From contig JAFAMV010000156.1 of assembly GCA_019233055.1 (NCBI GenBank), positions 1 through 39,995 on the forward strand: a DNA stretch of 39,995 nucleotides, read 5' to 3'. The first letter of the stretch is position 1; each line of letters opens with the position of its first letter. The notes under the pieces were generated by a model. The model saw only the letters and a list, made by a program, of their open reading frames with translations, made no database searches and was not told the origin of the DNA. The position numbers and the translations under genes were made by a program. This DNA comes from Curvibacter sp. Lineage in GTDB: Bacteria > Pseudomonadota > Gammaproteobacteria > Burkholderiales > Burkholderiaceae_C. Positions 11,343 to 32,300 of the stretch are shown in pieces.

Positions 11343-13088
<1,746 letters not shown>

Positions 13089-13089
13089 G

Positions 13090-13992
13090 TCAGCGTCCTC
13101 TGAGTCGGGGGTTGAAGGCATCGTTGAGTCCGTCGCCGAGCAGGTTGAGCGCCAGCACGGTGAGCACGATGGCGCCGCCCGGCAGGGCCGTCAGGAACCA
13201 GGCGGTGCGCAGCAGTTCGCGCCCCTGGCCGATCATGCTGCCCCAGGAGACCGCGTTCGGGTCGCCCATGCCGAGGAAGGACAAGGCCGACTCGATGAGG
13301 ATGGCGGTGGCCACCAGCACCGAGGTGGTGACGATCACCGGCGGCAGCGCATTGGGCAGCATCTCCTGCACGATGATGCGCCAGGGGCTGAAGCCTTGGC
13401 TGCGCGCGGCCAGCACGAAATCGGACTCGCGCAGGCTGCGGAATTCGGCCCGCACCAGGCGCGCGATCACCGGCCAGGAGGCCAGGCCGATGGCCGTCAC
13501 GATCACCGGCACCGAGGGCTGGCCGATGGCCACCACGACGATCACCAGCAAAAACGAGGGCACGGTCTGGAACAGCTCGGTGATGCGCACCACCAGGTCG
13601 TCGACCCAGCCGCCGAAATAGCCGCCCAGCGCCCCGAGCACGATGCCGATGAGCAGGCTCAGCACCGCCGCCACCGCGCCCACCGCCAGCGAGATCCGCG
13701 CGCCATGGGCGATGCCGGCCAGCACATCGCGGCCCAGCGAATCGCTGCCCAGCGGAAACTGCGGATCCTGGCCCGGCCACAGCAGGGGCGGCGCGACCAT
13801 GTCGAGCGGATCGCCGGGAAACAGCACCGGCGCCAGCAGCGCCAGCGCCGCCATGGCCAGCAGGATCAACAGACCGGCCACCGCCGCCGGGTTGCGCAAC
13901 AGGGTGCGCAGGGCCAGCCAGCGGCCGGCCGCCGGCGTAGCGGGCGCTGCCGGTGCCGCCGGGGCGGAAGGAACAGAGAGGCTTTCAGACAC
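13090..13992 (-). CDS. Peptide-type ABC transporter permease (DppC/OppC-like)
   Basis: A 300-residue permease. A Pro/Ala-rich N-terminus precedes the first helix (about 38-57). The periplasmic motif FPLGSDSLGRDVLAGIAHGARISL is diagnostic of DppC/OppC. The EAA loop is LRESDFVLAARSQGFSPWRI, then LPNALPPVIV. The end WGSMIGQGRELL and LNLLGDGLNDAFNPRLR is also typical. It pairs with the permease upstream (48-base gap) and is followed after 1 base by the double ATPase. No peptide-type binding protein gene is in this operon; one diverges from it at 15368. Confidence 0.92.
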   Translation of the reverse strand: MSESLSVPSAPAAPAAPATPAAGRWLALRTLLRNPAAVAGLLILLAMAALALLAPVLFPGDPLDMVAPPLLWPGQDPQFPLGSDSLGRDVLAGIAHGARISLAVGAVAAVLSLLIGIVLGALGGYFGGWVDDLVVRITELFQTVPSFLLVIVVVAIGQPSVPVIVTAIGLASWPVIARLVRAEFRSLRESDFVLAARSQGFSPWRIIVQEMLPNALPPVIVTTSVLVATAILIESALSFLGMGDPNAVSWGSMIGQGRELLRTAWFLTALPGGAIVLTVLALNLLGDGLNDAFNPRLRGR

Positions 13993-14040: not shown

Positions 14041-15030
14041 TCAACGCAGACGGATGCGGGGATCGAGCCAGGCATGCAGCAGGTCGACCGCCATGTTGGC
14101 CAGGATCACCAGGCCCGAGGACATCAGCAGGATGCCCAGCAGCACGGTGTAGTCGCGCGCCATCACCGCCTCGAAGGCCAGGCGCCCGAGACCCGGCCAG
14201 CTGAACACGGTCTCGATCACCACCGCGCCGCCGAGCAGGGTGCCGAAGTGCATGCCGGCCACGGTGCTCACCGGGATCAGGGCATTGCGCAGCACATGGC
14301 GCAGGGTCACCGTCAGCGGGTGCAGCCCCTTGGCCTCGGCGGTGCGCACGAAATCGAGGCGGCTCACCTCCAGCATGGCCGAGCGCGTCAGGCGCGAGAA
14401 GATGGCGACATAGAAACCGGCCATGGCCAGCGAGGGCAACACCAGGTGGCGCAGGTGGTCCAGCAGCAGCGCCCAGCCGCTCAGCCCGGCACCGATGCTG
14501 GCACTGCCCCCCGTGGGCAGCCAGCCCAGCTTGACCGAGAACAGCACGATGGCCATCAGGCCGAGCCAGAAGCCCGGCGTCGAATACAGCAGCAGGGCCA
14601 GCACCGACAGCACACGGTCGGGCCAGCGGCCGACCAGGCTGGCCATCACCGTGCCCAGCAGCACCCCCAGGCCGAGTGCCAGCCCCAGGGCCGACACCAT
14701 CAGCAGCAGCGTGTTGCCCAGCCGGGCGCCGATCAGCTCGGTCACCGGCAGGTTGTAGCGCGGCGAATTGCCCAGGCTCAGATGCGCCAGATGCCCGAGG
14801 TAGGCCCCGAGCTGCTCGAGCACCGGCAGATCCAGGCCGAAATGCTGGCGCAGCTGGGCCATGGTCTCGGCCGTCGCCGAGCCGGCCTCGGCAGCCATCA
14901 CATCGGCGGCGTCGCCCGGCAGCGCCTGCATCAGGAAGAAGTTCAGCACCACCACCCCGATCACCGTCGGGACCGCCTGCCAGGCGGTTCGGCGCAGGGT
15001 CGCGCCCAGGGCTTGCCAGCGCCGGCTCAT
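14041..15030 (-). CDS. Peptide-type ABC transporter permease (DppB/OppB-like), first gene of the operon
   Basis: A 329-residue permease with the DppB/OppB pattern: an N-terminal helix followed by the periplasmic loop with AMAQLRQHFGLD-like spacing (MAQLRQHFGLDLPVLEQ), YNLPVTELIGARLGNTLLLM, the EAA loop LDFVRTAEAKGLHPLTVTLRHVLRNALIP, and the tail VILANMAVDLLHAWLDPRIRLR. GAAGGG lies upstream of the ATG. It opens the six-gene operon (permeases, double ATPase, then the sulfonate importer) read leftwards. The promoter should lie in the 337-base divergent region 15031-15367. Confidence 0.92.
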   Translation of the reverse strand: MSRRWQALGATLRRTAWQAVPTVIGVVVLNFFLMQALPGDAADVMAAEAGSATAETMAQLRQHFGLDLPVLEQLGAYLGHLAHLSLGNSPRYNLPVTELIGARLGNTLLLMVSALGLALGLGVLLGTVMASLVGRWPDRVLSVLALLLYSTPGFWLGLMAIVLFSVKLGWLPTGGSASIGAGLSGWALLLDHLRHLVLPSLAMAGFYVAIFSRLTRSAMLEVSRLDFVRTAEAKGLHPLTVTLRHVLRNALIPVSTVAGMHFGTLLGGAVVIETVFSWPGLGRLAFEAVMARDYTVLLGILLMSSGLVILANMAVDLLHAWLDPRIRLR

Positions 15031-15367: not shown

Positions 15368-16984
15368 ATGACCCGAATCCCGGAACGCCTGATCCAGGCC
15401 ACCCTGCTCAGCCTGGCCCTGCTGGGGGCCGCCACCCCGACCCGCCCAGCCCACGCACAGACCGGCCCCGCTGCCGCCACGCCCCATGCGGGCGGCACGC
15501 TGAACTGGGCCATCAACCCGGTGCCGAATTCGATCGTGCCGCTGACCACCACGGCCGGTGGCAACACCGAGATCGGCCCCAAGATCGTCGAGGGCCTGCT
15601 GACCTTCGACAACGAGCTGCGCCCCAAGCCCCTGCTGGCCACCGCCTGGTCGGTCAGCAAGGACGGCCTGCAGTACCGCTTCGAACTGCGCAAGGGCGTG
15701 AAATGGCACGACGGCCATGACTTCAGTTCGGCCGATGTGGCCTTCTCGATCCAGACCCTCAAGCAGGTGCATCCGCGCGGACGCGGCACCTTCGCCAATG
15801 TGACCGAGGTGAAGACGCCCGACGCCCACACCGTGATCCTGGTGCTGAGCAAGCCCTCGCCCTTTCTGCTGACCGCGCTGGCGGCCACCGAATCGCCGAT
15901 CGTGCCCAAGCACCTGTACGAGGGCACCGACATCGCCACCAACAAGTACAACAGCGCCCCGGTCGGCACCGGCCCCTTCGTGTTCAAGGAATGGGTGCAG
16001 GGCAGCCACATCATCCTGGAGCGCAACCCCAACTACTGGGACAAGCCCAAGCCCTACCTCGACCGCATCGTGGTGCGCTTCGTCACCGACCCGGTGGCGC
16101 GCGCTGCGGCGCTCGAGGCCGGCAGCCTGGACCTGGGCGCCGGCAGCGCCAGCATCCCGCTGACCGACGTCGAGCGCTTCAAGCAATTGCCCAATGTGAA
16201 TGTGGACTCCCACAACTGGAGTTACGTGGGGGACCACCAGCAGATCTATTTCAACCTCGACACGCCGGCGCTGCAGAACCTCGAGGTGCGCCGCGCCCTG
16301 GCCGAAGCGGTGGACCTGAACGCCTTCAAGCGCACCGTCTGGCTCGGCTACGGCGCGCTCTCGGCCTCGCCTATCGGCACCCTGCTGAGCCGCTACCACG
16401 ACAGCAGCATCCAGCCCGTCGCCTACGACCCGAAGCAGGCCGAGGCCGCCCTGGACGCCGCCGGGTTCAAGCGCAACGCCAACGGCGTGCGCCTCAAGCT
16501 GCGCCTGCTCTACAACCCCTTTGTGGATCGCCGCGCGGTCGACTTCCTGCGCCAGTCGCTGGGCCGCATCGGGGTCGATGCCAACATCGAGACCTATGAC
16601 TTCGCCACCTATGTGACCAAGGCCTACACCGACCGCGCCTTCGACCTCACCTTCGAATCGCTGACCAACATCTTCGACCCCTCGGTGGGCGTGCAGCGCA
16701 TCTTCTGGTCGAAGAACTTCAAGATCGGCCTGCCCTTCTCCAACGCACCGCACTACGTCAACCCCGAGGTGGACCGCCTGCTCGAAGCCGCCTCGGTCGA
16801 GGTCGACGAGGCCAAGCGCCGCGAGCTCTTCGTCGCCTTCCAGCAGCAGGTGCACAAGGACCTGCCCTCGATCGAGGTCGGCGCCAACCCGAACATCACC
16901 GTCAGTTCGAAGAAGGTGCACGACTACGCCACCACCGGCGAGGGCCTGCGCGGCAGCTTCGCCGACCTCTACCTGACGCCCTGA
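15368..16984 (+). CDS. Peptide-type ABC substrate-binding protein (family 5, DppA/OppA-like), copy 1
   Basis: A 538-residue secreted protein with a signal peptide about 1-32 ([19 protein letters not shown]). Family 5 motifs are clear: [73 protein letters not shown] and [20 protein letters not shown]. The ligand could be a peptide, opine, glutathione or another medium-sized molecule. It diverges from the permease operon, which lacks its own binding protein, and so is its probable partner. It is followed after 115 bases by ssuD. Two close paralogues lie at 25227 and 29609. The ATG at 15368 gives a normal signal peptide, although no ribosome site is visible. Confidence 0.9.
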
Positions 16985-18224: not shown

Positions 18225-18233
18225 GACCCCACC

Positions 18234-19211: not shown

Positions 19212-19229
19212 GCCCCGGGAGCACGCCCC

Positions 19230-20216
19230 ATGCCTGCGCAGCGCGACACCCCACGCGACACCCCACGCAACAGCCCGCGCAACAGCCCGCGCGATTTCCA
19301 GCGCGACACCGCCAGCCCCTGGCAGGCCTTGCTGATCCCCGCCGACCTGCCCCCGGTGAGCAGTGTCGGCGAGGCCGGCTGGGGCGGCCTGTCGCTGCCC
19401 CGCGAGACGGCCGCCCCAGCGCCCCGCCGCCAAGCCGCCGATGCCGCCCGCCCCCGGGCCTGGCAGGGCTGGGTCCTGCCGCTGCTGCTGCTGTCGCTCT
19501 GGGAGCTCGGCGTGCGCCTGGGCTGGCTGCCGGCCCGACTGCTGCCCGCACCCAGCGAGATCGCCCAGGCCCTGGGCGAACTTGGCGCCGCCACCGTGCT
19601 GTCCGATCTGGCGGTCAGCAGCCTGCGCGTGGCCGCCGGCTATGCCCTGGGGGCGGCGCTCGGCCTGTCGCTGGGCGCCCTGGTCGGCCTGTCGCGGCGC
19701 AGTGCCCGCTGGCTGGACCCGAGCCTGCAGGGACTGCGGGCCATTCCCTCGCTGGCCTGGGTGCCGCTGCTGTTGCTGTGGCTCGGCATCGACGAGGCGC
19801 CCAAGGTGGCGTTGATCGCCATCGGCGCCTTCTTTCCGGTCTACATGGGCGTGTCCTCGGGCTTTCGCGACGTCGATCGGCGACTGGTCGAGGTGGCGCG
19901 GCTGTACCGCCTGGGGCCCTGGGCCCTGGTGCGTCGCGTGCTCCTGCCTGCCGCGCTGCCGTCGGTGCTCACCGGGCTGCGCAACGGCCTGAGCCTGGCC
20001 TGGATGTTCATGGTGGCCGCCGAGCTGATCGCCGCCACCCGGGGCCTGGGCTACCTGCTCACCGATGGCCGCGAGACCGGCCGGGCCGACCTGGTGCTGG
20101 CCGCCATCGTGCTGCTGGCCCTGCTGGGCAAGCTCAGCGACGGCGCCATGAAGGCGCTGGAACAACGCCTGCTGGCCTGGCGCGACACCCTGGACACCCT
20201 CGAGGCCGGCGCATGA
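19230..20216 (+). CDS. ssuC: Sulfonate ABC transporter permease (SsuC-like, set 2) with long N-terminal extension
   Basis: A 328-residue permease whose first membrane helix begins only near residue 79. The first 78 residues are soluble: a four-residue repeat (RDTP, RDTP, RNSP, RNSP, RDFQ, RDT), then WQALLIPADLPPV and a Gly/Pro/Arg-rich linker. The membrane part is ordinary SsuC: LLPAPSEIAQALGEL, LRAIPSLAWVPLLLLWLGID, and the EAA loop LVEVARLYRLGPWALVRRVLLPAALPSVL. GGGAGCACGCCCC precedes the ATG. It overlaps ssuB by ATGA. Possible internal starts further in lack a convincing ribosome site. Confidence 0.9.
   Translation: MPAQRDTPRDTPRNSPRNSPRDFQRDTASPWQALLIPADLPPVSSVGEAGWGGLSLPRETAAPAPRRQAADAARPRAWQGWVLPLLLLSLWELGVRLGWLPARLLPAPSEIAQALGELGAATVLSDLAVSSLRVAAGYALGAALGLSLGALVGLSRRSARWLDPSLQGLRAIPSLAWVPLLLLWLGIDEAPKVALIAIGAFFPVYMGVSSGFRDVDRRLVEVARLYRLGPWALVRRVLLPAALPSVLTGLRNGLSLAWMFMVAAELIAATRGLGYLLTDGRETGRADLVLAAIVLLALLGKLSDGAMKALEQRLLAWRDTLDTLEAGA
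19242..19310 (+). repeat. 12-base tandem repeat inside the ssuC reading frame
   Basis: The unit CGCGACACCCCA occurs twice (19242-19253, 19254-19265), then CGCAACAGCCCG twice (19266-19277, 19278-19289), then CGCGATTTCCAG and a partial CGCGACACC up to 19310. The unit is a multiple of three, so copy-number change would not shift the frame. It encodes the RDTP/RNSP repeat. Confidence 0.93.
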
Positions 20217-20965
20217 GCCACGAGGCGCCGGCTGAAGCGCTGCTGTCGGTCCGGATCCGGCACAAGGGCCACGGGAGCCGCACCCTGCTGCGGGATTTCG
20301 GTCTGCAACTGCAGGCCGGTGAGGTGCTGAGCCTGATCGGCCCCAGCGGCTGCGGCAAGAGCAGCCTGCTGCGCATCCTGGCCGGGCTCGATGCCGATTT
20401 CGACGGCCAGGTGCAGATCGACGGCCAGCCCGCCGACCCGGATCGGCGCGACATCGGCTTCGTGTTCCAGGAGCCGCGCCTGTTCCCCTGGCTCAGCGTG
20501 GCCGACAACATCGCCTTCGACCCCCGGCGGCCGCCCGACAGCGTCCACCGCGTCGAGGCCCTGCTCGACGAGGTCGGACTCGGCGGCCTGGGACGGCGCC
20601 TGCCCAAGCAGCTTTCCGGCGGGCAGGCCCAGCGCGTCGCGATCGCGCGCAGCCTGTTCGGCCAGCCCCGGGTGCTGCTGCTCGACGAACCCTTTTCCGC
20701 GGTGGACGCGCTGACCCGGCTGAAGCTGCAGGAGCTCCTCGGCGCGGTCGTGCGCGAGCACCGGGTGGCAGTGCTGCTGGTGACCCATGACGTCGAAGAG
20801 GCGGCCCTGCTCAGCGACCGGGTGCTGGTGATGGAGAGCGGCCGCCCGGGCGAACCGCGCCAGCAGCGCATCGATCTGCCGCGCCCCCGTGATCGGTCCG
20901 ATCCCGCGCTGTCGCGGTTGCGCCAGCAACTTCTGCAGGAGCTGGCCGAAGCCCATGCCCTTTGA
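20213..20965 (+). CDS. ssuB: Sulfonate ABC transporter ATP-binding protein (SsuB-like, set 2)
   Basis: A 250-residue ATPase: Walker A GPSGCGKSS, Q-loop VFQEPRLFPWLSV, signature LSGGQAQR, Walker B VLLLDEPFSAVDALTR and switch histidine VTHDVEEA. This is the SsuB/TauB/NrtD pattern. The C-terminal part (RQQRIDLPRPRDRSDPALSRLRQQLLQEL) matches SsuB endings. The ATG at 20213 overlaps the permease stop (ATGA). It ends the ssuDACB run and converges on the minus-strand monooxygenase operon. Confidence 0.92.
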   Translation: MSHEAPAEALLSVRIRHKGHGSRTLLRDFGLQLQAGEVLSLIGPSGCGKSSLLRILAGLDADFDGQVQIDGQPADPDRRDIGFVFQEPRLFPWLSVADNIAFDPRRPPDSVHRVEALLDEVGLGGLGRRLPKQLSGGQAQRVAIARSLFGQPRVLLLDEPFSAVDALTRLKLQELLGAVVREHRVAVLLVTHDVEEAALLSDRVLVMESGRPGEPRQQRIDLPRPRDRSDPALSRLRQQLLQELAEAHAL

Positions 20966-21025: not shown

Positions 21026-22357
21026 TTAGCCCCGCTGCGGGCGTACCAGTCCCAGGTGATCCCGGAGCGTCTGGCCCTCGTAGTCCTGCCGGGCCAGACC
21101 ACGGCGGCGCAGCTCGGGCAGCACGCGGCGCGCGAAATCCTGCAGGCCGTTGGGCAGCACCGGCGCCATGATGTTGAAACCGTCGGCACCGTGGTGGACA
21201 AAGCGCTCCTCGAGCTGGTCGGCGATCTGTTCGGGCGTGCCCACCAGCTGCCAATGCCCGCGTGCGCCGGCCACTCGATGGTAGAGCTGGCGGATGCTGA
21301 GGTTCTCGCGCCGCGCCAGGGCCAGGGTCAACTCCTGGCGGCTCTGGCTGGCATTGGTCAGCGGCAGCTCGGGGATCGGGCCGTCGAGGTCATGGCCCGA
21401 CAGGTCCACGCCCCCGGTCAGCCCCGAGATCAGCGACAGGCCCAGCACCGGGTCGATCAGCGACTGCAGCTGCTCGAACTTCTCGCGCGCCTCGCTCTCG
21501 CTGGCGCCCACCACCGGGAACACGCCCGGCATGATGAGCAGGCTGTCGGGCGACCGGCCATGGGCCGCCAGACGCCCCTTGAGGTCGGCATAGAAGGCCA
21601 CCGCGTCCTCCAGCGTCTGCTGGGCGGTGAACACCACCTCGGCACTGCGGGCCGCCAGCGCCTTGCCGTCCTCGGACGAGCCGGCCTGCACCAGCACCGG
21701 GCGCCCCTGGGGCGATCGGGCCACATTCAACGGCCCCTGGACCGAGAAATGCGTGCCCTTGTGGTGCAGCACATGGCGCCGGGCCGGATCGAAGACGCGG
21801 CCGCCGGCCTTGTCCCACAGGAAGGCATCATCGTCCCAGCTGTCCCACAGCCCGCGCACCACATCGGCGAATTCGCTCGCCCGCGCATAGCGCTCGGCAT
21901 GCTCGAAATGCTTGTCGCGGTTGAAATTGCGGGCCTCGAACTCGCTCGACGAAGTGACCAGGTTCCAGCCCGAGCGTCCGCCGCTGAGGTGGTCCAGCGA
22001 GGCGAACTTGCGCGCGATGTGGAAGGGTTCGTTGAAGCTGGTCGAGGCGGTGCCCACCAGGCCAATCTTCTCGGTGACCATGGACAGCGCCGACAGCAGC
22101 GTGAGCGGCTCGAACTGCGAGACATAGCTGTGCGCCGTGCGGCTCAGCACCTCGGGGCGGTCGCCCCGGGTGCCGACACCGTCGGCCAGGAAGATCAGGT
22201 CGAAGCGCGCCGCCTCGGCCTCGCGGGCCAGGGCGGCGTAGTGCCGGATGTCCAGCCCCGCGCCCGGCACCGCGTCCGGATGCCGCCAGGCCGCGATGTG
22301 GTGACCGGTCGGGTAGAGAAAGGCGCCGAAGCGCAGAAAGCCTTCACGTCGGGCCAT
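21026..22357 (-). CDS. Flavin-dependent monooxygenase of the NtaA/SnaA/DszA family
   Basis: A 443-residue luciferase-fold enzyme. Members use FMNH2 and oxygen: DszA turns dibenzothiophene sulfone to a sulfinate, NtaA cleaves nitrilotriacetate, SnaA acts on pristinamycin. Family signatures are clear: FDLIFLADGVG, ARKFASLDHLSGGRSGWNLVTS, EARNF (141-145), HFEHAERYARASEF, SPQGRPVLVQAGSS, GTPEQIADQLEERF, GADGFNIMAPVLP and the C-terminal TLRDHLGL, which DszA also has. The ribosome site GAGGA overlaps the end of the DUF3088 gene, 8 bases upstream. It is last in a three-gene leftward operon. With DszC-like and DszB-like genes across the divergent region, a sulfone mono-oxygenase role is the best guess. 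Confidence 0.9.
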   Translation of the reverse strand: MARREGFLRFGAFLYPTGHHIAAWRHPDAVPGAGLDIRHYAALAREAEAARFDLIFLADGVGTRGDRPEVLSRTAHSYVSQFEPLTLLSALSMVTEKIGLVGTASTSFNEPFHIARKFASLDHLSGGRSGWNLVTSSSEFEARNFNRDKHFEHAERYARASEFADVVRGLWDSWDDDAFLWDKAGGRVFDPARRHVLHHKGTHFSVQGPLNVARSPQGRPVLVQAGSSEDGKALAARSAEVVFTAQQTLEDAVAFYADLKGRLAAHGRSPDSLLIMPGVFPVVGASESEAREKFEQLQSLIDPVLGLSLISGLTGGVDLSGHDLDGPIPELPLTNASQSRQELTLALARRENLSIRQLYHRVAGARGHWQLVGTPEQIADQLEERFVHHGADGFNIMAPVLPNGLQDFARRVLPELRRRGLARQDYEGQTLRDHLGLVRPQRG

Positions 22358-22365
22358 GGCGATCC

Positions 22366-22713
22366 TCAGAGACTGAGCAGGCCGTGCTGCCGAGCCAGCC
22401 AGCGGGCGATCTGCGCCGGGTCGTCGACAAAGGCCTGACCCTCGTGCCAGCGCGCTTCGGGCGGGGCCTTCGCGGCGTCACCGATCAGCAGCACCGGCAG
22501 ACCCTGGTTCTTCTCGCCCAGCAGCTCGATGACCGCCTGACGGGGTCGCTCGAAAGGCACCCGGCTGACCCGCAGGCCCTGCGCGGCGCCCTCGGGTGCG
22601 GTGGCCAGCAGGCCTTCGAGCAGATTGCAGTCGGGACAGGCGAAACGCTCGCCGGCAGCACGGTCGCGCCGGACAAAGCCGGGCTGGATCAGGATCAGGT
22701 GGTCTTGGCTCAT
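22366..22713 (-). CDS. DUF3088 family small protein with CxxC motif
   Basis: A 115-residue protein matching the DUF3088 pattern as I remember it: LILIQPGF near the start, GERFACPDCNLLEGLLA (C26 and C29), then VPFERPRQAVIELLGEKNQGLPVLLIGD and AFVDDPAQIARWLARQHG. The spacing of the CxxC, a cis-Pro-like GLPVLLI and a final helix resembles a thioredoxin or glutaredoxin fold. A redox or thiol-handling role is therefore plausible but unproven. It sits between the aldo/keto reductase (27-base gap) and the DszA-type gene (8-base gap). Confidence 0.7.
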   Translation of the reverse strand: MSQDHLILIQPGFVRRDRAAGERFACPDCNLLEGLLATAPEGAAQGLRVSRVPFERPRQAVIELLGEKNQGLPVLLIGDAAKAPPEARWHEGQAFVDDPAQIARWLARQHGLLSL

Positions 22714-22740
22714 GGTGTTCCAATGCAGAGAGTCGGGAAT

Positions 22741-23757
<1,017 letters not shown>

Positions 23758-24002
23758 GTGGGTCCTGTCATCTGGAATGGCGCAAAAGGTTGCGCCCGCA
23801 TTTGAATCCGGGAATCAGATGCCCCCGGAGACGGGTCGATTCTAGAAATCGGATCCCGGCCTGGGAAGCCACGGCAGCGACGTTTTCCAAGGATGCTCAT
23901 CCGGATTCGGCATAGCAGGAATCCGCCGCGATGCCCAGAATCGACTGCCTCGATTCACGCCTCCATGCAGGCCCGCAGCCGGCATGCGCAAAAGGGAGAT
24001 CC
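23758..24002. promoter_or_regulatory. Divergent regulatory region with several dyads and GAATC/GATTC boxes
   Basis: These 245 bases separate two divergent operons and contain no gene. Elements: hairpin GGCGCAA-N4-TTGCGCC (23779-23796) in the leader of the leftward operon; palindrome CGATT-N5-AATCG (23837-23851); inverted repeat CGGATTC-N10-GAATCCG (23902-23925). Seven GAATC/GATTC boxes occur at 23804, 23812, 23838, 23904, 23919, 23938 and 23952. The ribosome site AAAGGGAG (23991-23998) serves the rightward gene. Exact promoters were not assigned. Confidence 0.75.
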
Positions 24003-25187
24003 ATGTCCTTTCCTGCCCACCCTGGCGCCCTCGTCGGCCTCGAGCGTTTCGCCTCACCGGCCGACTTCCCGGACAGCCCGCTGTCACAGGCGCTGCGCCA
24101 GCCCGTCCTGCTGGGCCTGTTCCTGCCGATCCAGGCCGGTGGCTGGAGCGCCTCGACCCTGCCGCGCAGCACCGACTGGCGCTTCGACTACAACCGCGAC
24201 CTGGTGCTCAAGAGCGAGGCGCTGGGCTTCGATCTGGTGTTCGCCCTGTCGCAATGGCTGCCCAAGGGCGGCTATGGCGGGGTGTTCGACGGCCAGGCCC
24301 TCGACTCCTTCATGACCACGGCGGCGTTGACCGCCATCACGCAGCGCATCATCCTGATCTCGACCATCCATGTGCTCTACGGCCCGCTGCACCCGCTGCA
24401 CCTGGCCAAATGGGGTGCCACGCTGGACCACATCAGCGGCGGCCGCTGGGGCATCAACCTGGTCACCGGGCACCGCGCGGTCGAACACGAGATGTTCGGC
24501 GCCCGCCCCATCGAACACGACCGCCGCTACGTGCTGAGCGCCGAGTTCATCGAAGTGGTGCAAAGGCTCTGGAGCGACCCCGAGAACTTCTCCTATGCGG
24601 GCCAGTCGCCCTGGCGCCTGGACGGCGCCTTCGTCAGCCCCAAGCCGCGCTTCGGCCGGCCGGTGCTGGTCAATGCCACAGGCTCGGAAGCCGGCTTCGA
24701 ATATGCCGCCCGCTACTCGGACATCGTCTTCATCACCAGCCCGGGGCGCTCGGACTTCGCCGGCGCCATCGAGGCCCTGCCGGCCCACACCGCCCGCCTC
24801 AAGGCGGTGGGCCAGAGCCAGGGCCGCCGCCTGCGCACCCTGCTCAATCCGCTGGTGGTGAGCCGCGACACCGAAGCCGAGACGCGCGCCTACTACGACG
24901 CCATCGTGGCACACCAGGACCCGGCCGCGCCCAAGGGCTTCAACAGCCTGGTCAGCGACGCCCATGCCTGGCGCGGCCGTGTCGGCCAGGATGCGCCGCA
25001 GCGCCGTGCCATCGGCGGCAACATCGAGGTCGTGGGCACGCCCGAGCAGGTGGTCGAGCAGTTCGTCCAGCTGCAGCGCGCCGGGATCGACGGGCTGCAG
25101 CTGAGCTTCTTCGACTTCAAGCCCGACCTCGAATTCTTCGGCGACCGCATCCTGCCCCTGATGAAGCAGGCCGGCCTGCGCCTCTGA
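24003..25187 (+). CDS. Flavin-dependent monooxygenase, SfnG-like (dimethylsulfone monooxygenase type)
   Basis: A 394-residue luciferase-fold enzyme, first gene of the rightward operon. It resembles SfnG, which converts dimethylsulfone to methanesulfinate: STDWRFDYNRDL (56-67), LDHISGGRWGINLVTGH, EHDRRYVLSAEFIEVVQRLW, FVSPKPRFGRPVLVNA and the end DLEFFGDRILPLMKQAGL. About 30 N-terminal residues are extra relative to SfnG. Motifs differ enough that the substrate may be another sulfone or sulfonate. The ATG at 24003 is preceded by a good ribosome site. A binding protein, an amidase and DszC/DszB-like genes follow. Confidence 0.8.
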   Translation: MSFPAHPGALVGLERFASPADFPDSPLSQALRQPVLLGLFLPIQAGGWSASTLPRSTDWRFDYNRDLVLKSEALGFDLVFALSQWLPKGGYGGVFDGQALDSFMTTAALTAITQRIILISTIHVLYGPLHPLHLAKWGATLDHISGGRWGINLVTGHRAVEHEMFGARPIEHDRRYVLSAEFIEVVQRLWSDPENFSYAGQSPWRLDGAFVSPKPRFGRPVLVNATGSEAGFEYAARYSDIVFITSPGRSDFAGAIEALPAHTARLKAVGQSQGRRLRTLLNPLVVSRDTEAETRAYYDAIVAHQDPAAPKGFNSLVSDAHAWRGRVGQDAPQRRAIGGNIEVVGTPEQVVEQFVQLQRAGIDGLQLSFFDFKPDLEFFGDRILPLMKQAGLRL

Positions 25188-25226
25188 CCCGCCCCCTTCG
25201 TCCTTTCCCAAACCCACCCACAAGAC

Positions 25227-26813
25227 ATGAACCGGAACCGAATCCTTCCCACCCTGGCCGGCGCCCTGCTGGCCCTCAGTGCCGCCCTGCACCCGGCCCT
25301 GGCCCAGAACGCCCCGATCCAGGGCGGCACCCTGACCCTGGCCACCGATCTGGAGCCGCCGGCCCTGGTGTCCTTCCTCGACACCAACACCCGCATCCGC
25401 AACATCAGCGGCAAGATCACCGAAGGCCTGCTGCGCTACGACGCCGACTTCAAGCCCCAGCCCCTGCTGGCCACCAGCTGGACCATCAGCCCCGACGGCC
25501 TGCGCTACACCTTCAAGCTGCGGCCCCATGTGAAATGGCACGATGGGCAGGACTTCAGCTCGGCCGATGTGAAGTATTCGCTGCTGACCGAGAAGAAGCT
25601 GGGCCCGCGCGCGCGCATCACCCTGGCCGCGCTGGACCGCGTGGAGACCCCGGACGCGCTGACCGCCGTGCTGGTGCTGAGCAAGCCGACCCCCTTCCTG
25701 ATCAAGTCGCTGAGTTCGGCCGAACTGCCCATCGTGCCGGCGCACCGCTACACCGAGGGCGACCCGCTCACCAGCCCCAACCAGCTGGCCCCGGTCGGCA
25801 CCGGGCCCTTCACTTTCGGCGAGTGGGTGCGCGGCAGCCACATCATCCTCAAGCGCAACCCGAACTACTGGGCGGCCGGCAAGCCGCACCTGGACCGTGC
25901 GGTGATCCGCTTCATCGCCGACGGCGCCTCGATCGCGGCGGCCCTGGAGGCCGGTGAGATCGACGTGGCCACCAACATCAACCTGGCCGATCTGGACCGG
26001 CTGGGCCAGAACCCGAAGGTCAAGGTCGATGACAGCTACGACGCCTTCCTCAACAACGCCGCCTTCCTCGAATTCAATGTCGAGCACCCGATCCTGGCCA
26101 AGCCCGAGGTGCGGCAGGCCATCGCCCAGGCGATCGACCGCAACGCGCTGCGCAGCGCGGTGTATTTCAAGCATGCCGAGGTGGTGAACTCGCCGGTGCC
26201 CAGCGTGCTCGCCAGCTACTACGACGACAGCACCTTCCGGTACGGCTACGACCTGGCCCGGGCCAACCAGCTGCTCGACCAGGCGGGCTATCCGCGCCAG
26301 GCGAATGGCCAGCGCTTCAACCTGCGCCTGACCAACATCCCGGGCGCCGACTTCAAGCGGGCCTCGGAATTCCTGCGCGCCGCCCTGGCCCGGGTGGGCA
26401 TCAAGGTCGAACTCCAGGACGGCGACATGCCGACCTTCTTCAAGCGCATCTACACCGCGCGCGATTTCGACCTGAACATCAACGGCCTCGGGCGCCTCTA
26501 TGACCCGACCGTGGGCGTGCAGCGCTTCTACTGGTCCGACGGCATCAAGAACCCGCTGATCTGGATCAACGCGGCGCACTACAACAACCCGCAGGTCGAC
26601 GAGCTGTTCCGTCAGGCCGCCGTGGAGATCGACGAGGGCCGGCGCGCCAGCCAGTTCAAGCAGATCCAGCAGATCGTGGGCCGCGACCTGCCGGTCTACC
26701 CCCTGGTGACGGTGCCCAACCCGGCCGCCTACAGCACCCGGGTGCACCAGTTCTTCAACAGCGTGGACCTGCATGCCGGCGACTGGTCCGACACCTGGGT
26801 CGAGGCCCGCTGA
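25227..26813 (+). CDS. Peptide-type ABC substrate-binding protein (family 5), copy 2
   Basis: A 528-residue secreted protein with signal peptide about 1-27 (GALLALSAALHPALAQ). Family 5 motifs: GGTLTLATDLEPPALVSF, LLATSWTISPDGLRYTFKL, VKWHDGQDFSSADVKYS, GTGPFTFGEWVRGSHIILKRNPNYW and NPQVDELFRQAAVEIDEGRR. It is a paralogue of the proteins at 15368 and 29609 but more distant from them than they are from each other. No permease or ATPase gene lies in this operon, so it may use the system at 11343-15030 (inference). It begins 39 bases after the SfnG-like gene. Confidence 0.9.
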   Translation: MNRNRILPTLAGALLALSAALHPALAQNAPIQGGTLTLATDLEPPALVSFLDTNTRIRNISGKITEGLLRYDADFKPQPLLATSWTISPDGLRYTFKLRPHVKWHDGQDFSSADVKYSLLTEKKLGPRARITLAALDRVETPDALTAVLVLSKPTPFLIKSLSSAELPIVPAHRYTEGDPLTSPNQLAPVGTGPFTFGEWVRGSHIILKRNPNYWAAGKPHLDRAVIRFIADGASIAAALEAGEIDVATNINLADLDRLGQNPKVKVDDSYDAFLNNAAFLEFNVEHPILAKPEVRQAIAQAIDRNALRSAVYFKHAEVVNSPVPSVLASYYDDSTFRYGYDLARANQLLDQAGYPRQANGQRFNLRLTNIPGADFKRASEFLRAALARVGIKVELQDGDMPTFFKRIYTARDFDLNINGLGRLYDPTVGVQRFYWSDGIKNPLIWINAAHYNNPQVDELFRQAAVEIDEGRRASQFKQIQQIVGRDLPVYPLVTVPNPAAYSTRVHQFFNSVDLHAGDWSDTWVEAR

Positions 26814-26837
26814 CCCCCAGATCACAAGGAGACCGAC

Positions 26838-28361
26838 ATGAGCCAGCTATCCGAATCCAGCCGGGCCCGCCTGGCCGAACTCAGCTTTGCCAGCGCCAGC
26901 GCGCAGGCCCGGGCGCTGGCCGAAGGCCAGGTCAGCGCGGTGGACCTGCTGGAACACACCCTGGCCCGCATCGAGCGCTACAACCCGGTGCTCAATGCGA
27001 TCGTGGTGTTCGATCTGGAGCGCGCCCGCGCCGACGCCCGCGCCGCCGACACCGCGCTGGCCCGCGGCGAGCGCCGCCCGCTGCTCGGGGTGCCGATCAC
27101 GGTGAAGGAATCCTTCGACGTGGCCGGGCTGCCGACCACCTGCGGCAGCCCCTCGCAGGCCGGCAACATCGCACGGCGCGACGCCGAGGCGGTGCTGGGC
27201 CTGCGCGAGGCCGGTGCGGTGATCCTGGGCAAGAGCAATGTGCCGCTGGCCCTGGCCGATCTGCAGAGCTACAACGCCCTGCATGGCCTGAGCCGCAACC
27301 CCTGGAACCTGCAGCGCACCCCCGGAGGCTCGTCGGGCGGCTCGGCGGCGGCGCTGGCCGCCGGCCTGGTGGCGCTGGAGCTGGGCTCGGACATCGGCGG
27401 TTCGATCCGCATCCTGGCCCATTTCAGCGGCGTCTACGGCCACAAGCCCAGCCAGGGCCTGGTGTCGCTGCATGGCGCCGGCCTGCCGCCCGGCCGCCTG
27501 GCCGACCGCGACCTCAGCGTGGCCGGACCGATGGCCCGCACGGCAGACGACCTGGCACTGGCCCTGCCGCTGCTGCTCAACCAGGACCGGCTGTTGTCCA
27601 AGGCCTGGCGGGCGCAGCTGCCGGCGCCGCGCCACGAACGCCTGTCCGACTACAAGGTGCTGCTGATCGACCACTGGCCCGGCACGCGCCAGAGCCTGCA
27701 CGAGCGCCTGGTCGGCGAACGGCTGCAGGAGCGGCTGCGCACCCAGGGCGTGGCACTGAGCCGCCCGCGCGACCTCCCGGCCGATCTGCTGCCCGACCTG
27801 GCCGCCGACCACAGCCTGTATCGGGGCCTGCTCGGGGCCTCGCTGATCGACCCGCCGCCGCTGAGCGAATCGGCCCGCCAGCGCCTGAAGCGGCTGCAGC
27901 CCGACGACAGCAGCGCCGACGCCAGCTGGTTGCGCGCACAGACGATCAGCCACCGCGACTGGCTGCGGCAGAACGAGGCACGGCTGCAGACCCGCGCGCG
28001 CTGGGAGCGCCTGTTCCAGACCTTCGACCTGGTGCTGACCCCGGTGGCCCCGCTGCCGGCCTTCGAGCACAACCACAGCGAGCCCAAGGACGAACGCCAT
28101 TACCCGGTGGCCTATGAGGACGGGGTGGCGCCGACCCGCTTCCAGGATCTGTTCCACTGGGCCGGCCTGCCGGTGCTGCCCGGACTGCCGGCCACCAGCT
28201 TTCCGCTGGGACTGGACGAGGCCGGCCTGCCCATCGGCGCCCAGGCCGTCGGCCCCTACCTCGAAGACCTGAGCCCGATCCGCTTCGCCAGCCTGCTCGA
28301 ATCGCTGTATGGCGGCTTCCAGCTGCCACCGGGCTACGCGCCGCCGGAAGCCAGCGCATGA
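26838..28361 (+). CDS. Amidase signature family hydrolase
   Basis: A 507-residue cytoplasmic amidase. The Ser-cisSer-Lys triad is present: K90 in GVPITVKESFDVAG, S165 in TPGGSSGGSAA, and nucleophile S189 in GSDIGGSIR. After the nucleophile the protein reads RILAHFSGVYGHKPSQG where many members have RIPAAFCGVYGLKPS, so the substrate pocket may differ. It should hydrolyse a carboxamide to an acid plus ammonia or an amine. AAGGAGA lies just before the ATG. The DszC-like gene overlaps its stop by ATGA, so the two steps are translationally coupled, hinting that the imported sulfur compound carries an amide (inference). Confidence 0.9.
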   Translation: MSQLSESSRARLAELSFASASAQARALAEGQVSAVDLLEHTLARIERYNPVLNAIVVFDLERARADARAADTALARGERRPLLGVPITVKESFDVAGLPTTCGSPSQAGNIARRDAEAVLGLREAGAVILGKSNVPLALADLQSYNALHGLSRNPWNLQRTPGGSSGGSAAALAAGLVALELGSDIGGSIRILAHFSGVYGHKPSQGLVSLHGAGLPPGRLADRDLSVAGPMARTADDLALALPLLLNQDRLLSKAWRAQLPAPRHERLSDYKVLLIDHWPGTRQSLHERLVGERLQERLRTQGVALSRPRDLPADLLPDLAADHSLYRGLLGASLIDPPPLSESARQRLKRLQPDDSSADASWLRAQTISHRDWLRQNEARLQTRARWERLFQTFDLVLTPVAPLPAFEHNHSEPKDERHYPVAYEDGVAPTRFQDLFHWAGLPVLPGLPATSFPLGLDEAGLPIGAQAVGPYLEDLSPIRFASLLESLYGGFQLPPGYAPPEASA

Positions 28362-29596
28362 GCGACCTGTCACAACCCCTGCACCACACCGGCGAACCGG
28401 CCCGCACGCCACCGGACGAGGCCCTGGCACTGCTCGGACGGGCCCGCGAGCTGGGCCGCACCCTGGCCACCCAGGCGGCCGAGCGGGACCTCAGCGCCCA
28501 GGCGCCTGCCGACGCCTTCGAAGCCCTGCAGGCGCAGGACCTGCTGCGCCTGACCATCGCCCGCGAGCACGGCGGGCATGGCGCCGGGCTGGACCTGACG
28601 CGGCAGGTGATTGCCGCCATCGCCTACGGCGACCCCTCGGTGGCGCTGATCCTCAGCATGCACTACAGCCTGCATGCCGCGATCGCGCGGTCGCTGCAGC
28701 TGGCCGATGGCGAATGGCCCGTCAGCCTGGCGCACCGGCTCATCCAGGCCTCGCTGCACAGCCCTTCGCTGATGAATGCGGCCCAGGTCGAGCCGGCCCT
28801 GGGCTCACCCTCGCATGGCGGCCTGCCGGCGACCTTGGCGCGCCGGGTGCCGGGCGGCTGGCAGATCAGCGGCCACAAGGTCTATGTCACCGGCGTGCCC
28901 CTGCTGTCCTGGATCAGCGTCCTGGCGGTGACCGACGAGGCCGAACCCCGCCTGGGCTCTTTCCTGCTGCCGCGCGAGGCGCCGGGGGTGCAGGTGGTCG
29001 AGACCTGGGACCCGATCGGCATGCGGGCCACGGCCAGCCACGATGTGCTGTTCGACGCGGTGGCCGTCCCCGAGGACCACGCGGTCGGCCTGCGCCCGGC
29101 CCATCTGGGCCAGAAGCGCGATCCGCAGACCATCGCCTGGTATTTCAGCCAGGTGGCCAGCCTCTACGACGCCACCGCCCGGGCCGGACGCGACTGGCTG
29201 CTGGGCTTTCTGCAGCAGCGCCGGCCCAGCGTGCTCGGTGGCGCGGCGCTGGCCAGCCTGCCGACGGTGCAGGAGGCGGTGGGGCGCATCGAGCTGCTGC
29301 TGTCGACCAACGACTGGCTGCTGCAAAGCCATGCCCAGGCCTACGACCTGGGGCAGGCGCCCGACGCGCTCGGCAGCCTGGTGAAACAGGTGGTCAGCGA
29401 CAACGCGGTTCAGGCCCTGACCCAGGCCCTGCAACTGGCGGGCAACCACGGCCTGTCGCGCCACCACCCGCTGGAGCGCCATCACCGCAATGTGCTGTGC
29501 AGCCAGGTGCATGCGCCGCCGAACGCCCTGCTGCGCAGCCAGCTCGGTCGGCAGGCGCTGGAGCGCACACCCGACGGCCCGGCCACGCCGGTCTGA
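28358..29596 (+). CDS. Acyl-CoA dehydrogenase-fold flavin monooxygenase, DszC/SfnB-like
   Basis: A 412-residue protein with the acyl-CoA dehydrogenase fold. DszC, in the same fold, oxidises dibenzothiophene to sulfoxide and sulfone with reduced flavin and oxygen. Aligning by eye, DszC H92 corresponds to H102 (LSMHYSLHAA), S163 to T178 (KVYVTGVP), and H391 to H385 (HRNVLCSQVHAPPN). No catalytic glutamate of true dehydrogenases is visible in the C-terminal region. This favours a monooxygenase over a beta-oxidation enzyme. It starts inside the amidase stop and is followed after 12 bases by a binding protein whose ribosome site GGAGAG begins at its stop. SfnB-type function is the alternative. Confidence 0.8.
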   Translation: MSDLSQPLHHTGEPARTPPDEALALLGRARELGRTLATQAAERDLSAQAPADAFEALQAQDLLRLTIAREHGGHGAGLDLTRQVIAAIAYGDPSVALILSMHYSLHAAIARSLQLADGEWPVSLAHRLIQASLHSPSLMNAAQVEPALGSPSHGGLPATLARRVPGGWQISGHKVYVTGVPLLSWISVLAVTDEAEPRLGSFLLPREAPGVQVVETWDPIGMRATASHDVLFDAVAVPEDHAVGLRPAHLGQKRDPQTIAWYFSQVASLYDATARAGRDWLLGFLQQRRPSVLGGAALASLPTVQEAVGRIELLLSTNDWLLQSHAQAYDLGQAPDALGSLVKQVVSDNAVQALTQALQLAGNHGLSRHHPLERHHRNVLCSQVHAPPNALLRSQLGRQALERTPDGPATPV

Positions 29597-29608
29597 GGAG
29601 AGCCGACC

Positions 29609-31237
29609 ATGACGACCCCGACACCCAAGCTGAGCGCAGGCACCCGGCGTGCCTTTGTGCAGACCAGCGCCATGGCCCTCGGCCTGTTCGGCGCCCAGAC
29701 CCGGACCGCAGCGGCCGCCGAGACGCCCCGGCGCGGCGGCACCCTGAGCGTGCTGATCTTTCCCGAGCCGCCGACGCTGACCACCATCGCCCACACGGCG
29801 GGTTCGTCGGTGCTGACCTCGGCCAAGGTCTGCGAGGGCCTGTTGAGCTACGACTTCGACCTGAGTCCCCGGCCCCAGCTGGCCGTCGGCTGGCGCATCA
29901 GCCCCGACGGTCTGAGCTACACCTTCAACCTGCGCCGGGGGGTGCGCTGGCATGACGGCAAGCCCTTCAGCTCGGCCGACGTGGCCCACTCCCTGCGCCT
30001 GCTGAAGGAATTCCATCCGCGCGGACGTGCCACCTTCGCGGCGCTCGAGGACATCGAGACCCCTGATGCACACACGGTGGTGCTGCGCCTGGCCCATCCG
30101 GTGCCTTACCTGATCACCGCGCTGGCGGCCTCGGAGTCGCCCATCGTGCCCAGGCACCTCTACGACAGCGGGCGCGCCGACAGCCACCCGGCCAACAATG
30201 CGCCGGTGGGCACCGGCCCCTTCATCTTCCGGGAATGGGTGCGCGGCAGCCATGTGCTGTACGAGCGCAACCCGGACTACTGGGACCCGGGCCGGCCCTA
30301 CATCGACCGCCTGATCCTGCGCTTCATCCCGGATGCGGCCGCGCGCTCGGCCGCCATCGAAAGCGGCGAGGTGCTGCTGGCGCCGGCCTCGCCGGTGCCG
30401 ATGGCCGATGTCGAGCGGCTGCGCAAGCTGCCGCAGCTGGTCTTCGAGACCCAGGGCTACCAGTACATCAACAACGTCTACCGGCTGGAGTTCAACCTCG
30501 AGACGCCGGCGCTCCAGGACCTGCGCGTGCGCCAGGCCATCGCCCAGGCCATCCAGCGCGAGAACCTGCTGCGGGTGGCCTGGTACGGCCAGGGCCAGCT
30601 GGTGCCGGGCCCGGTCAACCCGGCGCTGAAGAAGTTCTACCGGGGCGATCTGCCGGTGCTGCCCTACGACCCGGCCGCCGCCCAGCGCCTGCTCGACCAG
30701 GCCGGGCTCAGTGCCGGTCTGGCCGGGCCAGGACTGCGCCTGCGGCTCAATGCCACGCCCATCCCCAACGAAGGGGGACAGCGCACCGCCGACTTCCTGC
30801 GGCAGGCCCTGGGGCGCATCGGCATCGCGGTGCAGGTCAACAACCAGGATTTCGCCACCTACATCAAGCGCATCTACACCGATCGCGATTTCGATCTGCA
30901 CATCAGCGCGATGAGCAACACCTTCGACCCCAGCGTGGGCATCCAGCGCCTGTACTGGTCGAAGAACTTCCGTCCCGGCCTGCCCTTCTCGAACGGCTCG
31001 GGCTACAGCAACCCCGAGGTCGACCGCCTGCTCGAGGCCGCCGCCGTCGAGACCGACGAGGCCCGGCGCGTCGAGCAGATCACCGCGTTCCAGCGCCTCA
31101 TCGTGCGCGACCTGCCCGACATCAACCTGATCGCCCCGGACACCTACACCATCGCCGATCGCCGCGTGCGCAACCACACCGTGGGAGCGGACGGGACGGC
31201 CGGCAACCTCGCCGGTGTCTGGCTGGCGGCGACCTGA
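29609..31237 (+). CDS. Peptide-type ABC substrate-binding protein (family 5), copy 3
   Basis: A 542-residue secreted protein; the N-terminus GTRRAFVQTSAMALGLFG has a twin arginine (R14-R15 region) and a hydrophobic stretch ending AAAAE near 36, so Tat or Sec export is possible. Motifs: GGTLSVLIFPEPPTLTT, VRWHDGKPFSSADVAHS, GTGPFIFREWVRGSHVLYERN and [22 protein letters not shown]. It is closely similar to the protein at 15368, for example in HPRGRATFA, TPDAHTVVLRL and ALAASESPIVPRHLYD. It lies between the DszC-like and DszB-like genes, linking uptake to the desulfurization enzymes. No permease is adjacent. Confidence 0.9.
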   Translation: MTTPTPKLSAGTRRAFVQTSAMALGLFGAQTRTAAAAETPRRGGTLSVLIFPEPPTLTTIAHTAGSSVLTSAKVCEGLLSYDFDLSPRPQLAVGWRISPDGLSYTFNLRRGVRWHDGKPFSSADVAHSLRLLKEFHPRGRATFAALEDIETPDAHTVVLRLAHPVPYLITALAASESPIVPRHLYDSGRADSHPANNAPVGTGPFIFREWVRGSHVLYERNPDYWDPGRPYIDRLILRFIPDAAARSAAIESGEVLLAPASPVPMADVERLRKLPQLVFETQGYQYINNVYRLEFNLETPALQDLRVRQAIAQAIQRENLLRVAWYGQGQLVPGPVNPALKKFYRGDLPVLPYDPAAAQRLLDQAGLSAGLAGPGLRLRLNATPIPNEGGQRTADFLRQALGRIGIAVQVNNQDFATYIKRIYTDRDFDLHISAMSNTFDPSVGIQRLYWSKNFRPGLPFSNGSGYSNPEVDRLLEAAAVETDEARRVEQITAFQRLIVRDLPDINLIAPDTYTIADRRVRNHTVGADGTAGNLAGVWLAAT

Positions 31238-31247
31238 AAGCCTCCCC

Positions 31248-32300
31248 ATGAGTCTGCCCTCTGTGGACGCCGCCCCGGCCTCCGTCCTCTGGTACACCCG
31301 CTGCCCGGTGCCCTCGCCGCTCGGTCTGGCCGCCCGACTGGGCTGGCTCGAGTCGGAGTTCCAGGCCCTGGGCCTGGAGGTGCGCTCGATCATCGACAGC
31401 CCGGTGACATCGGTGCGCGAGAGCCATTTCAACCACCACCTGCCCTGGTCGTTCCGCCAGGGCGGCAACATCCCGCCGATCTGGGCCCGCGCCCGCGGCG
31501 CCCGCACCCGGCTGGTGGGCATCACCTGGACCGATGAGTTCCAGGCGGTGATCACACGCCGCGACAGCCCGCTGCGGCAGACGGCACAGCTGACCGGGCA
31601 GCGCGTCGGCGTCCCACGGCGCATCCACGACGCCATCGATTTCCACCGGGCCACCGCGCTCAAGGGCCTGGATTCGGCGCTGGGGCTCGCCGGCCTGACG
31701 CTGTCCGAGGTGCAGACGGTGGACCTGACGATCACCGAGCCGTCGCTCGCCTCGCCCGGCGACCCGAGCCTGCATGGCCTGCGCCGACGCCACCCCTACC
31801 TGGCCGAACTGCAGGCCTTGGCCTCGGGCGAGGTGGAAGCAGTCTTCGTGAAAGGCGCCGAGGGCGTGCTGGCGGCCAACCTGATCGGCGCCCGCGTCCT
31901 GGCCGACCTGGGGAGCCACCCCGATCCCCGGGTCCGCATCAACAACGGCACCCCGCGCCTGCTGACCGTCGACCAGGCCCTCGCCGACGAACGCCCCGAT
32001 CTGGTGCTGCAGCTTCTGCGCCTGGTCCGCCGCGCCGGGGCCTGGGCCGCCAGCCACCCCGATGAGACCCTGCGCTTCGTGGCGCGCGAGATCCAGGCCT
32101 CCGAAGAAACGGTGCTGGCCAGCAACGGCCCGCAGCTGCATGCGCATCTGGACCTGCAATTGCGCCCCGACTGGCTCGACGCCATCGGATATTTCAAGGA
32201 CTTTCTGCGGCGCCAGGGTGTGCTGGAGGGCGATTTCGAGGTCGCCGACTGGGTGGATGCGGGCCCGCTGCGGGCCCTGCAGGCCGAATCGGCCAGCTGA
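31248..32300 (+). CDS. DszB-like sulfinate desulfinase candidate
   Basis: A 350-residue protein with the periplasmic-binding-protein-like fold but no signal peptide, so it is probably cytoplasmic. DszB cleaves 2-(2-hydroxyphenyl)benzenesulfinate to 2-hydroxybiphenyl and sulfite. Its essential residues are Cys27 (YSNCPVP), His60 and Arg70 (RFGGEIPP). Here the counterparts are C19 in LWYTRCPVPSP, H60 in ESHFNHHLPW and R70 in SFRQGGNIPP; the His-Arg spacing is the same. TRLVGITW and SPLRQTAQLTGQRVGV also align. Automated annotation may call this an ABC substrate-binding protein. The ATG at 31248 lies 10 bases after the previous stop; a GTG at 31215 is an alternative. Its sulfinate substrate is unknown. 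Confidence 0.82.
   Translation: MSLPSVDAAPASVLWYTRCPVPSPLGLAARLGWLESEFQALGLEVRSIIDSPVTSVRESHFNHHLPWSFRQGGNIPPIWARARGARTRLVGITWTDEFQAVITRRDSPLRQTAQLTGQRVGVPRRIHDAIDFHRATALKGLDSALGLAGLTLSEVQTVDLTITEPSLASPGDPSLHGLRRRHPYLAELQALASGEVEAVFVKGAEGVLAANLIGARVLADLGSHPDPRVRINNGTPRLLTVDQALADERPDLVLQLLRLVRRAGAWAASHPDETLRFVAREIQASEETVLASNGPQLHAHLDLQLRPDWLDAIGYFKDFLRRQGVLEGDFEVADWVDAGPLRALQAESAS

Follow-up and report, generated by a model that had tools for sequence, protein, structure and literature searches.

Two divergent operons in Curvibacter sp. pair a predicted DszB-type sulfinate desulfinase with predicted flavin monooxygenases near a peptide-type importer

The sulfinate desulfinase DszB is best known from the desulfurization of fuels, a process limited by its slow turnover (PMC12168087). 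In the 4S pathway its gene lies in the compact dszA-dszB-dszC operon, for which we used the pMyong1 copy as reference. Two other described systems use related enzymes: the dimethyl sulfone (sfn/msu) pathway of pseudomonads, with SfnG, MsuC and MsuD, and S-alkyl-cysteine salvage by CmoJ (YtnJ) in Bacillus subtilis. Here we describe two divergent operons at positions 21,026 to 32,300 of a 39,995-nucleotide stretch of Curvibacter sp. DNA (assembly GCA_019233055.1, contig JAFAMV010000156.1; the whole stretch is referred to as the window), which encode a DszB homologue, flavin monooxygenases and solute-binding proteins (SBPs). Proteins are named by the lower coordinate of their gene. A preliminary description of this DNA had proposed a complete 4S-like set in which DszC-, DszA- and DszB-like proteins take one-to-one roles. 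We confirm the observation and find the interpretation partly supported, since it was right in direction and loose on completeness. With a probability of about 0.52, we read the genes as part of a conserved cluster for Dpp-type import of an organosulfur compound, its oxidation and cleavage by flavin monooxygenases, and release of sulfite by a DszB-family enzyme.

All of the genes that had been named are present, in two tightly packed operons on the minus strand (21026-23757) and the plus strand (24003-32300; Table 1). Intergenic gaps are 8 and 27 bases in the minus operon and 39, 24, -4, 12 and 10 bases in the plus operon, with 245 bases between the two. As in the 4S system, there is a DszB-family protein that keeps the Cys, His, Arg and RxGG residues, a luciferase-like monooxygenase (LLM), and a flavoprotein of the acyl-CoA-dehydrogenase (ACAD) fold. 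Unlike the compact dszABC order, the three counterparts are divided over divergent operons with extra genes between them, and an importer, binding proteins, an aldo/keto reductase (AKR) and an amidase are added. DszB Ser25 is a Thr in 31248, the DszB inserts are absent, and the DszA and DszC roles appear to be taken by other branches. The sfn/msu pathway shares an SfnG-related LLM and a flavoprotein folded like MsuC (group D), but 24003 falls below the SfnG cut-off and the locus here has a dedicated importer. Moreover, the sulfinate would here be desulfinated by the DszB homologue, whereas sfn/msu oxidises it to a sulfonate that MsuD cleaves. In common with CmoJ/YtnJ salvage, 21026 is close to YtnJ/MoxC and amino-acid and peptide importers are nearby; this locus differs in having a DszB homologue and an SfnG-type LLM, and its 21026-type protein is an inconstant partner.

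DszB is the sole PDB sequence match of 31248, at about 31% identity, and the predicted fold of 31248 is closer to DszB than to SsuA. Among the matches listed, DszB outranks every SBP by sequence and by fold, a ranking drawn from solved structures only that leaves room for families outside those listings. Residues Cys19, His60, Arg70, Gly72 and Gly73 align with Cys27, His60, Arg70 and the RxGG motif of DszB, the catalytic roles of which are given in PMC6100217. The Cys, His, Arg and both RxGG glycines are identical in 84 of 84 DszB-type copies, a set restricted to DszB matches spanning at least 70% of the query. With start codons chosen by script, only 11-23 residues precede the catalytic Cys in 73 of these copies (25-53 in the other 11), leaving little space for a signal peptide. 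Judged by these residues and by N-terminal hydropathy, 31248 shows no N-terminal signal peptide; its hydropathy is 1.09, compared to a DszB-type family median of 0.95 (maximum 2.08) and 1.07-2.28 for six SBPs of the window. Sequence and modelled fold thus make the DszB-family assignment firm and predict desulfinase activity, and the earlier DszB-like label agrees with the PDB match, the fold and the catalytic residues. Since calculations for DszB place the protonation at the aryl carbon of its sulfinate substrate (PMC6100217), an aryl, heteroaryl or vinyl sulfinate would be the likeliest intermediate.

The best NCBIfam match of 24003 is the SfnG model TIGR04021 at 196 bits, under the curated cut-off of 383, and its best PDB match is the SfnG-named 8t0u (E 2e-47). 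The label SfnG-like therefore holds as a nearest match and not at the level of the curated family; in the Curvibacter genome, none of 13 matches to TIGR04021 reaches the cut-off. Protein 21026 is well above the cut-off of 279.7 bits for TIGR03860, the NtaA/DmoA family that it shares with DszA. Against the PDB it scores 399 bits with 7e36, 388 with YtnJ/MoxC and 320 with DszA/BdsA, so it is nearer by sequence to YtnJ/CmoJ than to DszA, and its earlier placement in the DszA family is borne out for the broad family and not for closer kinship. It is also one of several LLM partners of DszB-type genes, of which the 24003 type is commoner. The DszC-like label of 28358 is the weakest: this protein scores 54.1 bits with the DszC model NF043015 (cut-off 850) and 113.5 bits with the SfnB model TIGR04022 (cut-off 430.9), and it groups away from DszC, itself a long branch of unsure placement. 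By these sequence criteria 28358 is not a DszC orthologue. Another protein of the same genome, on contig C101, exceeds the SfnB cut-off, and a different, more DszC/SfnB-like flavoprotein accompanies the gene set in many relatives; none is encoded between 21026 and 32300 here. The idea of a complete set with one-to-one roles is not supported by these results, since 28358 has no orthology to DszC and no counterpart in the Curvibacter and Variovorax loci, and 21026 is only one of several LLMs. What stands is a sulfinate-desulfinase-type enzyme beside flavin monooxygenases in a layout unlike dszABC.

A profile scan of genomic contigs gave at least 577 confirmed stretches, of which the best 80 were kept as DszB-type loci. 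These come from Curvibacter, Comamonas, Variovorax, Lampropedia, Hydrogenophaga, Rhodoferax, Rhizobium, Agrobacterium, Neorhizobium, Ectorhizobium, Mesorhizobium, Bradyrhizobium and Devosia, and from further Burkholderiaceae and Rhizobiales. Full flanks (a stretch of at least 20.9 kb) were available for 65 loci, and in these we counted partners with identity cuts fixed after the identities had been seen (24003 LLM 50%, 21026 LLM 40%, DppB/DppC 55%, AKR 55%, flavoprotein 40%). An LLM of the 24003 or 21026 type is present in 63 loci, DppB with DppC in 55, the AKR in 52, the 28358-type flavoprotein in 50 and the 24003-type LLM in 44. AKR, DppB and flavoprotein occur together in 44 loci, and in 25 of them with the 24003-type LLM as well. 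Co-conservation, the check that the preliminary description had put forward, is therefore seen for the monooxygenases, importer and reductase. At 50% identity or more over all 80 loci, DppA3, the importer genes, the AKR and the 24003 LLM are the most frequent matches (Table 1), followed after DppA1 by the 21026 LLM (22), DppA2 (18), amidase (12), SsuD (11), the 28358 flavoprotein (9), SsuB2 (5) and NfsA (2). The flavoprotein count is low because rhizobial versions are 40-48% identical, and 21026-type proteins rise to 31 loci at 40% identity. Of 35 window genes tested at the 50% cut, 20 match none or one of the 80 loci, the CxxC gene included, a soft control given that many genes sit beyond reach of the 10-kb flanks around the DszB gene. 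Much of the gene set recurs in alpha- and betaproteobacteria more than by chance, and a similar cluster is found by sequence in many rhizobia and Comamonas-type bacteria.

The association also appears at the genome level. Among 200 genomes of the family, the Curvibacter genome included, the DszB homologue (E 1e-60) occurs in 10 and the 24003 LLM in 8, with both in 6 (Fisher p 6.9e-8). The AKR at 60% identity or more and full length is in 8 genomes, 7 of which have the 24003 LLM (p 2.8e-11); the 60% cut was chosen once the identities had shown a break between 61% and 59%, and we disregarded a 62% match of half length in genome G190. The flavoprotein at 60% identity is in 3 genomes, all with the DszB homologue. 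Unrestricted sets at E 1e-60 are far less specific (AKR in 73 of the 200, flavoprotein in 22). With 10 of 200 family genomes and 8 of 397 sampled across the phylum, the distribution of the DszB homologue is patchy. Two relatives, L100 (genome G011) and L101 (G141), show a compact form in which AKR-DppFDCB diverges from LLM-(SBP-amidase)-flavoprotein-SBP-DszB, the SBP-amidase pair being present in L100 only. Both have a DszC/SfnB-type flavoprotein beyond the AKR and lack the 21026 LLM and CxxC genes. In most Rhizobium loci, DppA3-LLM-DszB-flavoprotein and DppBCDF-AKR point away from each other. The same divergent design is seen on the pSymA plasmid of Sinorhizobium meliloti strain ml46, where DppBCDF-AKR diverges from DszB-flavoprotein-DszB and further genes; compared to the Curvibacter locus, this stretch has no 24003-type LLM and two DszB copies. 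Divergent pSymA operons of five and eight genes, sma2085-sma2077 and sma2087-sma2101, are described in PMC5940162 as up-regulated upon deletion of a pSymB segment, and from gene number and orientation they are probably the same genes.

The notion of an imported substrate is supported by the DppBCDF-type importer being a frequent partner. In the window, its genes (11343-15030) and the further SBP DppA1 (15368-16984) lie outside the two operons, with ssuDACB in between. DppA3 is the binding-protein type commonest beside the DszB homologue. The amidase is present in the operon as had been described, yet it is a local addition, seen in Comamonadaceae-type loci only and adjacent to DppA2 in 15 of 15 amidase loci.

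From family membership of each protein, we propose that the family 5 binding proteins and DppBCDF import a polar thioether or sulfone, from which, in Comamonadaceae, the amidase likely first trims an amide. A flavoprotein (28358 here) would oxygenate the sulfur, and an LLM (24003, or an NtaA-type enzyme such as 21026) would split one C-S bond; of the two products, a sulfinate and an aldehyde, the AKR would reduce the latter. The cysteine of the DszB homologue would then protonate the sulfinate carbon and free sulfite. Reduced flavin may be supplied by the flavin-reductase-like protein at 4897-5751 of the window or by MsuE elsewhere in the genome. The best reading is of a sulfur-scavenging module, coupled to an importer, that is 4S-like in working and not a dszABC operon.

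Several observations weigh against this proposal. Of the 80 loci, 55 come from Rhizobium, Agrobacterium and further Rhizobiales, so that locus counts are not independent events. Among the nearest relatives, the 28358-type flavoprotein (at least 40% identity) is in none of two Curvibacter and four Variovorax loci. Few or no partners accompany the DszB homologue in L049 and L102, in the two Bradyrhizobium loci and in L032, whose right flank is truncated. Conversely, three loci (L097, L098 and L099) have the LLM/AKR half with no DszB homologue nearby, and the 24003 LLM is absent from the S. meliloti stretch and from 9 of 14 Agrobacterium loci, NtaA-type LLMs being present in both cases. The 28358 fold fits a monooxygenase, a dehydrogenase or an ACAD-fold 3-sulfinopropionyl-CoA desulfinase alike, and membership in SBP family 5 tells little of the ligand. 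31248 lacks the DszB insert that carries a Trp, presumably residue 155. A further 23 DszB-like copies, taken from loci at greater distance, include five with Ser in place of the catalytic Cys and two in which the His is lost; the wider family is thus not uniformly catalytic. Lastly, DszB acts by calculation on an aryl sulfinate (PMC6100217), yet nothing here implies an aryl substrate.

The loci in which the halves occur apart would also fit two sulfur-scavenging modules at one site, with separate substrates: the 24003 LLM, AKR and DppA2 (with the amidase) on one side, and DppA3 and the DszB homologue (with the flavoprotein) on the other. Identity to Curvibacter, at 84-89% for AKR, LLM and DppA2 versus 63-73% for amidase, DppA3 and DszB, is consistent with such a division, as is the lack of the flavoprotein in the Curvibacter loci. 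Given that the 24003-type LLM is nonetheless in 44 of the 65 full-flank DszB loci, and that presence correlates over the 200 genomes, we consider separate modules possible but doubtful. Salvage of S-alkyl-cysteines or S-substituted peptides of the CmoJ (YtnJ) type, with 21026 cleaving the C-S bond, the amidase removing the acyl group and uptake through the peptide-type importer, seems unlikely. The higher score of 21026 with YtnJ/MoxC than with DszA/BdsA points that way, and so do the peptide-family importer with its SBPs and the cystine-type ABC (ATP-binding cassette), cysteine-dioxygenase-like and cystathionine beta-lyase genes at 351-4526. However, 21026-type proteins are found in only 31 of the 80 loci even at 40% identity, no N-acyltransferase turned up among the proteins scanned against Pfam/NCBIfam, and we know of no step in that route for a DszB-type desulfinase.

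It is very improbable that 31248 is instead an ABC-transporter binding protein and the cluster a transporter with assorted oxidoreductases. The matches listed include 40 named homologues, 38 of them annotated as ABC binding proteins; 31248 shares the SBP fold, the SsuA family model scores 67.6 bits over residues 189-339, and the Ser at the catalytic Cys in five distant copies would suit a binding role. These points are opposed by the scant room for a signal peptide, the five catalytic and motif residues kept in all 84 copies, and the rank of DszB above every SBP listed. Least credible of all is a true 4S pathway on dibenzothiophene-like fuel sulfur. A DszB homologue is present along with proteins from the superfamilies of DszA and DszC, but there is no DszC orthologue, 21026 is nearer YtnJ than DszA, the importer is of a kind for polar solutes, the DszB pocket insert is absent and the cluster is spread widely in rhizobia. 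The route of a sulfolane-degrading Rhodoferax (PMC6395730) was rejected as an explanation of the cluster because that Rhodoferax lacks dszB according to its authors. Among open-licence titles and abstracts on DszB homologues in Variovorax, rhizobia and Comamonas, none describes the cluster, which is weak evidence of novelty.

Table 1. Features of the two divergent operons and of the importer genes in the window. Counts of loci are at 50% identity or more except where given otherwise.
Feature	Position	Strand	Evidence
Fused DppD-DppF-type importer ATPase	11343..13121	-	GsiA/YejF/OppD-type matches; 60/80 loci
DppC-type importer permease	13090..13992	-	Read from translation; homologue in 66/80 loci
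DppB-type importer permease	14041..15030	-	Opp/Nik/Gsi permease matches; 66/80 loci
Family 5 solute-binding protein DppA1, transcribed away from importer genes	15368..16984	+	Opp/Nik/GsiB-type matches; 30/80 loci
NtaA/DmoA-family LLM flavin monooxygenase	21026..22357	-	TIGR03860 577.6 bits
CxxC protein, DUF3088	22366..22713	-	PF11287 110.6 bits; at least 35% identity in 8/80 loci
Aldo/keto reductase (AKR)	22741..23757	-	PF00248 228 bits; 61/80 loci
Divergent promoter region	23758..24002	.	Alignment and inverted-repeat scan
LLM flavin monooxygenase predicted to cleave C-S bonds, placed between SfnG and RutA	24003..25187	+	57/80 loci
Family 5 solute-binding protein DppA2, adjoins amidase	25227..26813	+	PF00496 294 bits
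Amidase-signature hydrolase	26838..28361	+	PF01425 286 bits
ACAD-fold flavoprotein, predicted group D flavin monooxygenase, putatively S-oxygenating	28358..29596	+	
Family 5 solute-binding protein DppA3	29609..31237	+	PF00496 278 bits; 69/80 loci (best-assigned match)
DszB-family protein, predicted cytoplasmic sulfinate desulfinase	31248..32300	+	

The divergent promoter region contains the inverted repeats CGGATTC-N10-GAATCCG (23902) and GAATCGA-N5-TCGATTC (23938), and its ATTCTAGAAA and TTTCCAAGGAT blocks are kept in two Curvibacter loci. These repeats and conserved blocks are possible operators. A conserved block of this region, ATTCTAGAAAYC, has four matches in the window with at most two mismatches, compared to 0.4 expected. 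We dropped it as a regulon signal because the pattern was picked post hoc and because no sulfur gene was recognised in 3-kb stretches around five other near matches in the same genome (reading frames by eye, no family search). The sigma-54 pattern TGGCAC-N5-TTGCW, with 23 matches to 22.9 expected, gave no support.

The window as a whole is a sulfur-metabolism island. Left of the operons lies ssuD-ssuA-ssuC-ssuB (17100-20965), and further left are a second ssuABC-like set, a four-domain rhodanese and a nitro/flavin-reductase-like protein; to the right are a porin, a flavoprotein/ferredoxin pair and an amino-acid ABC set, some of these names on both sides coming from translations alone. The protein at 2680-3312 is 64% identical to a Variovorax protein annotated as cysteine dioxygenase family and has no Pfam/NCBIfam match at the limits used. 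In the pair at 34327-36290, a gene for an FAD-binding flavoprotein overlaps one for a 4Fe-4S ferredoxin, an arrangement that we take to resemble asfAB of arylsulfonate-using pseudomonads; an inverted repeat, CAATCGAAT-N5-ATTCGATTG, lies upstream at 34025-34047. At 39762-39989 there is a partial SfnB-model match (44.8 bits) in a gene that runs past the right window edge.

Other DszB-like genes occur in different settings. Three gammaproteobacterial genomes carry tandem pairs (L110, 10883 and 12010; L111, 9344 and 10456; L114, 5918 and 6993), in which one copy has the catalytic Cys (WYTRCPVP) and the other a Ser (WYTHSPVP), resembling the inactive C27S mutant of DszB; ssu-type genes lie in the same stretches. 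One stretch of a Sphingobium sp. TomTYG65 plasmid (L094) has three DszB-like genes, one of them annotated soxB, together with ssu genes, an NtaA-type LLM and an arylsulfatase.

We tentatively suggest that plant-associated alpha- and betaproteobacteria have a hitherto undescribed route, in which a Dpp importer would supply a flavin-monooxygenase/DszB-type cascade with a polar thioether or sulfone from plants or soil. Hundreds of genes named "ABC transporter substrate-binding protein" may then encode cytoplasmic sulfinate desulfinases, which would give the DszB family a natural role outside oil. The gene set is small, and tractable species have it, Sinorhizobium meliloti and Comamonas testosteroni among them. 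There is a large family with DszB catalytic residues, often beside an importer, in rhizobia including their pSymA plasmids. If the proposal is true, this family would reveal the sulfinates for which the DszB fold evolved and offer new enzymes to test, a frequent misnaming would be corrected, and a sulfur source for root bacteria would be defined.

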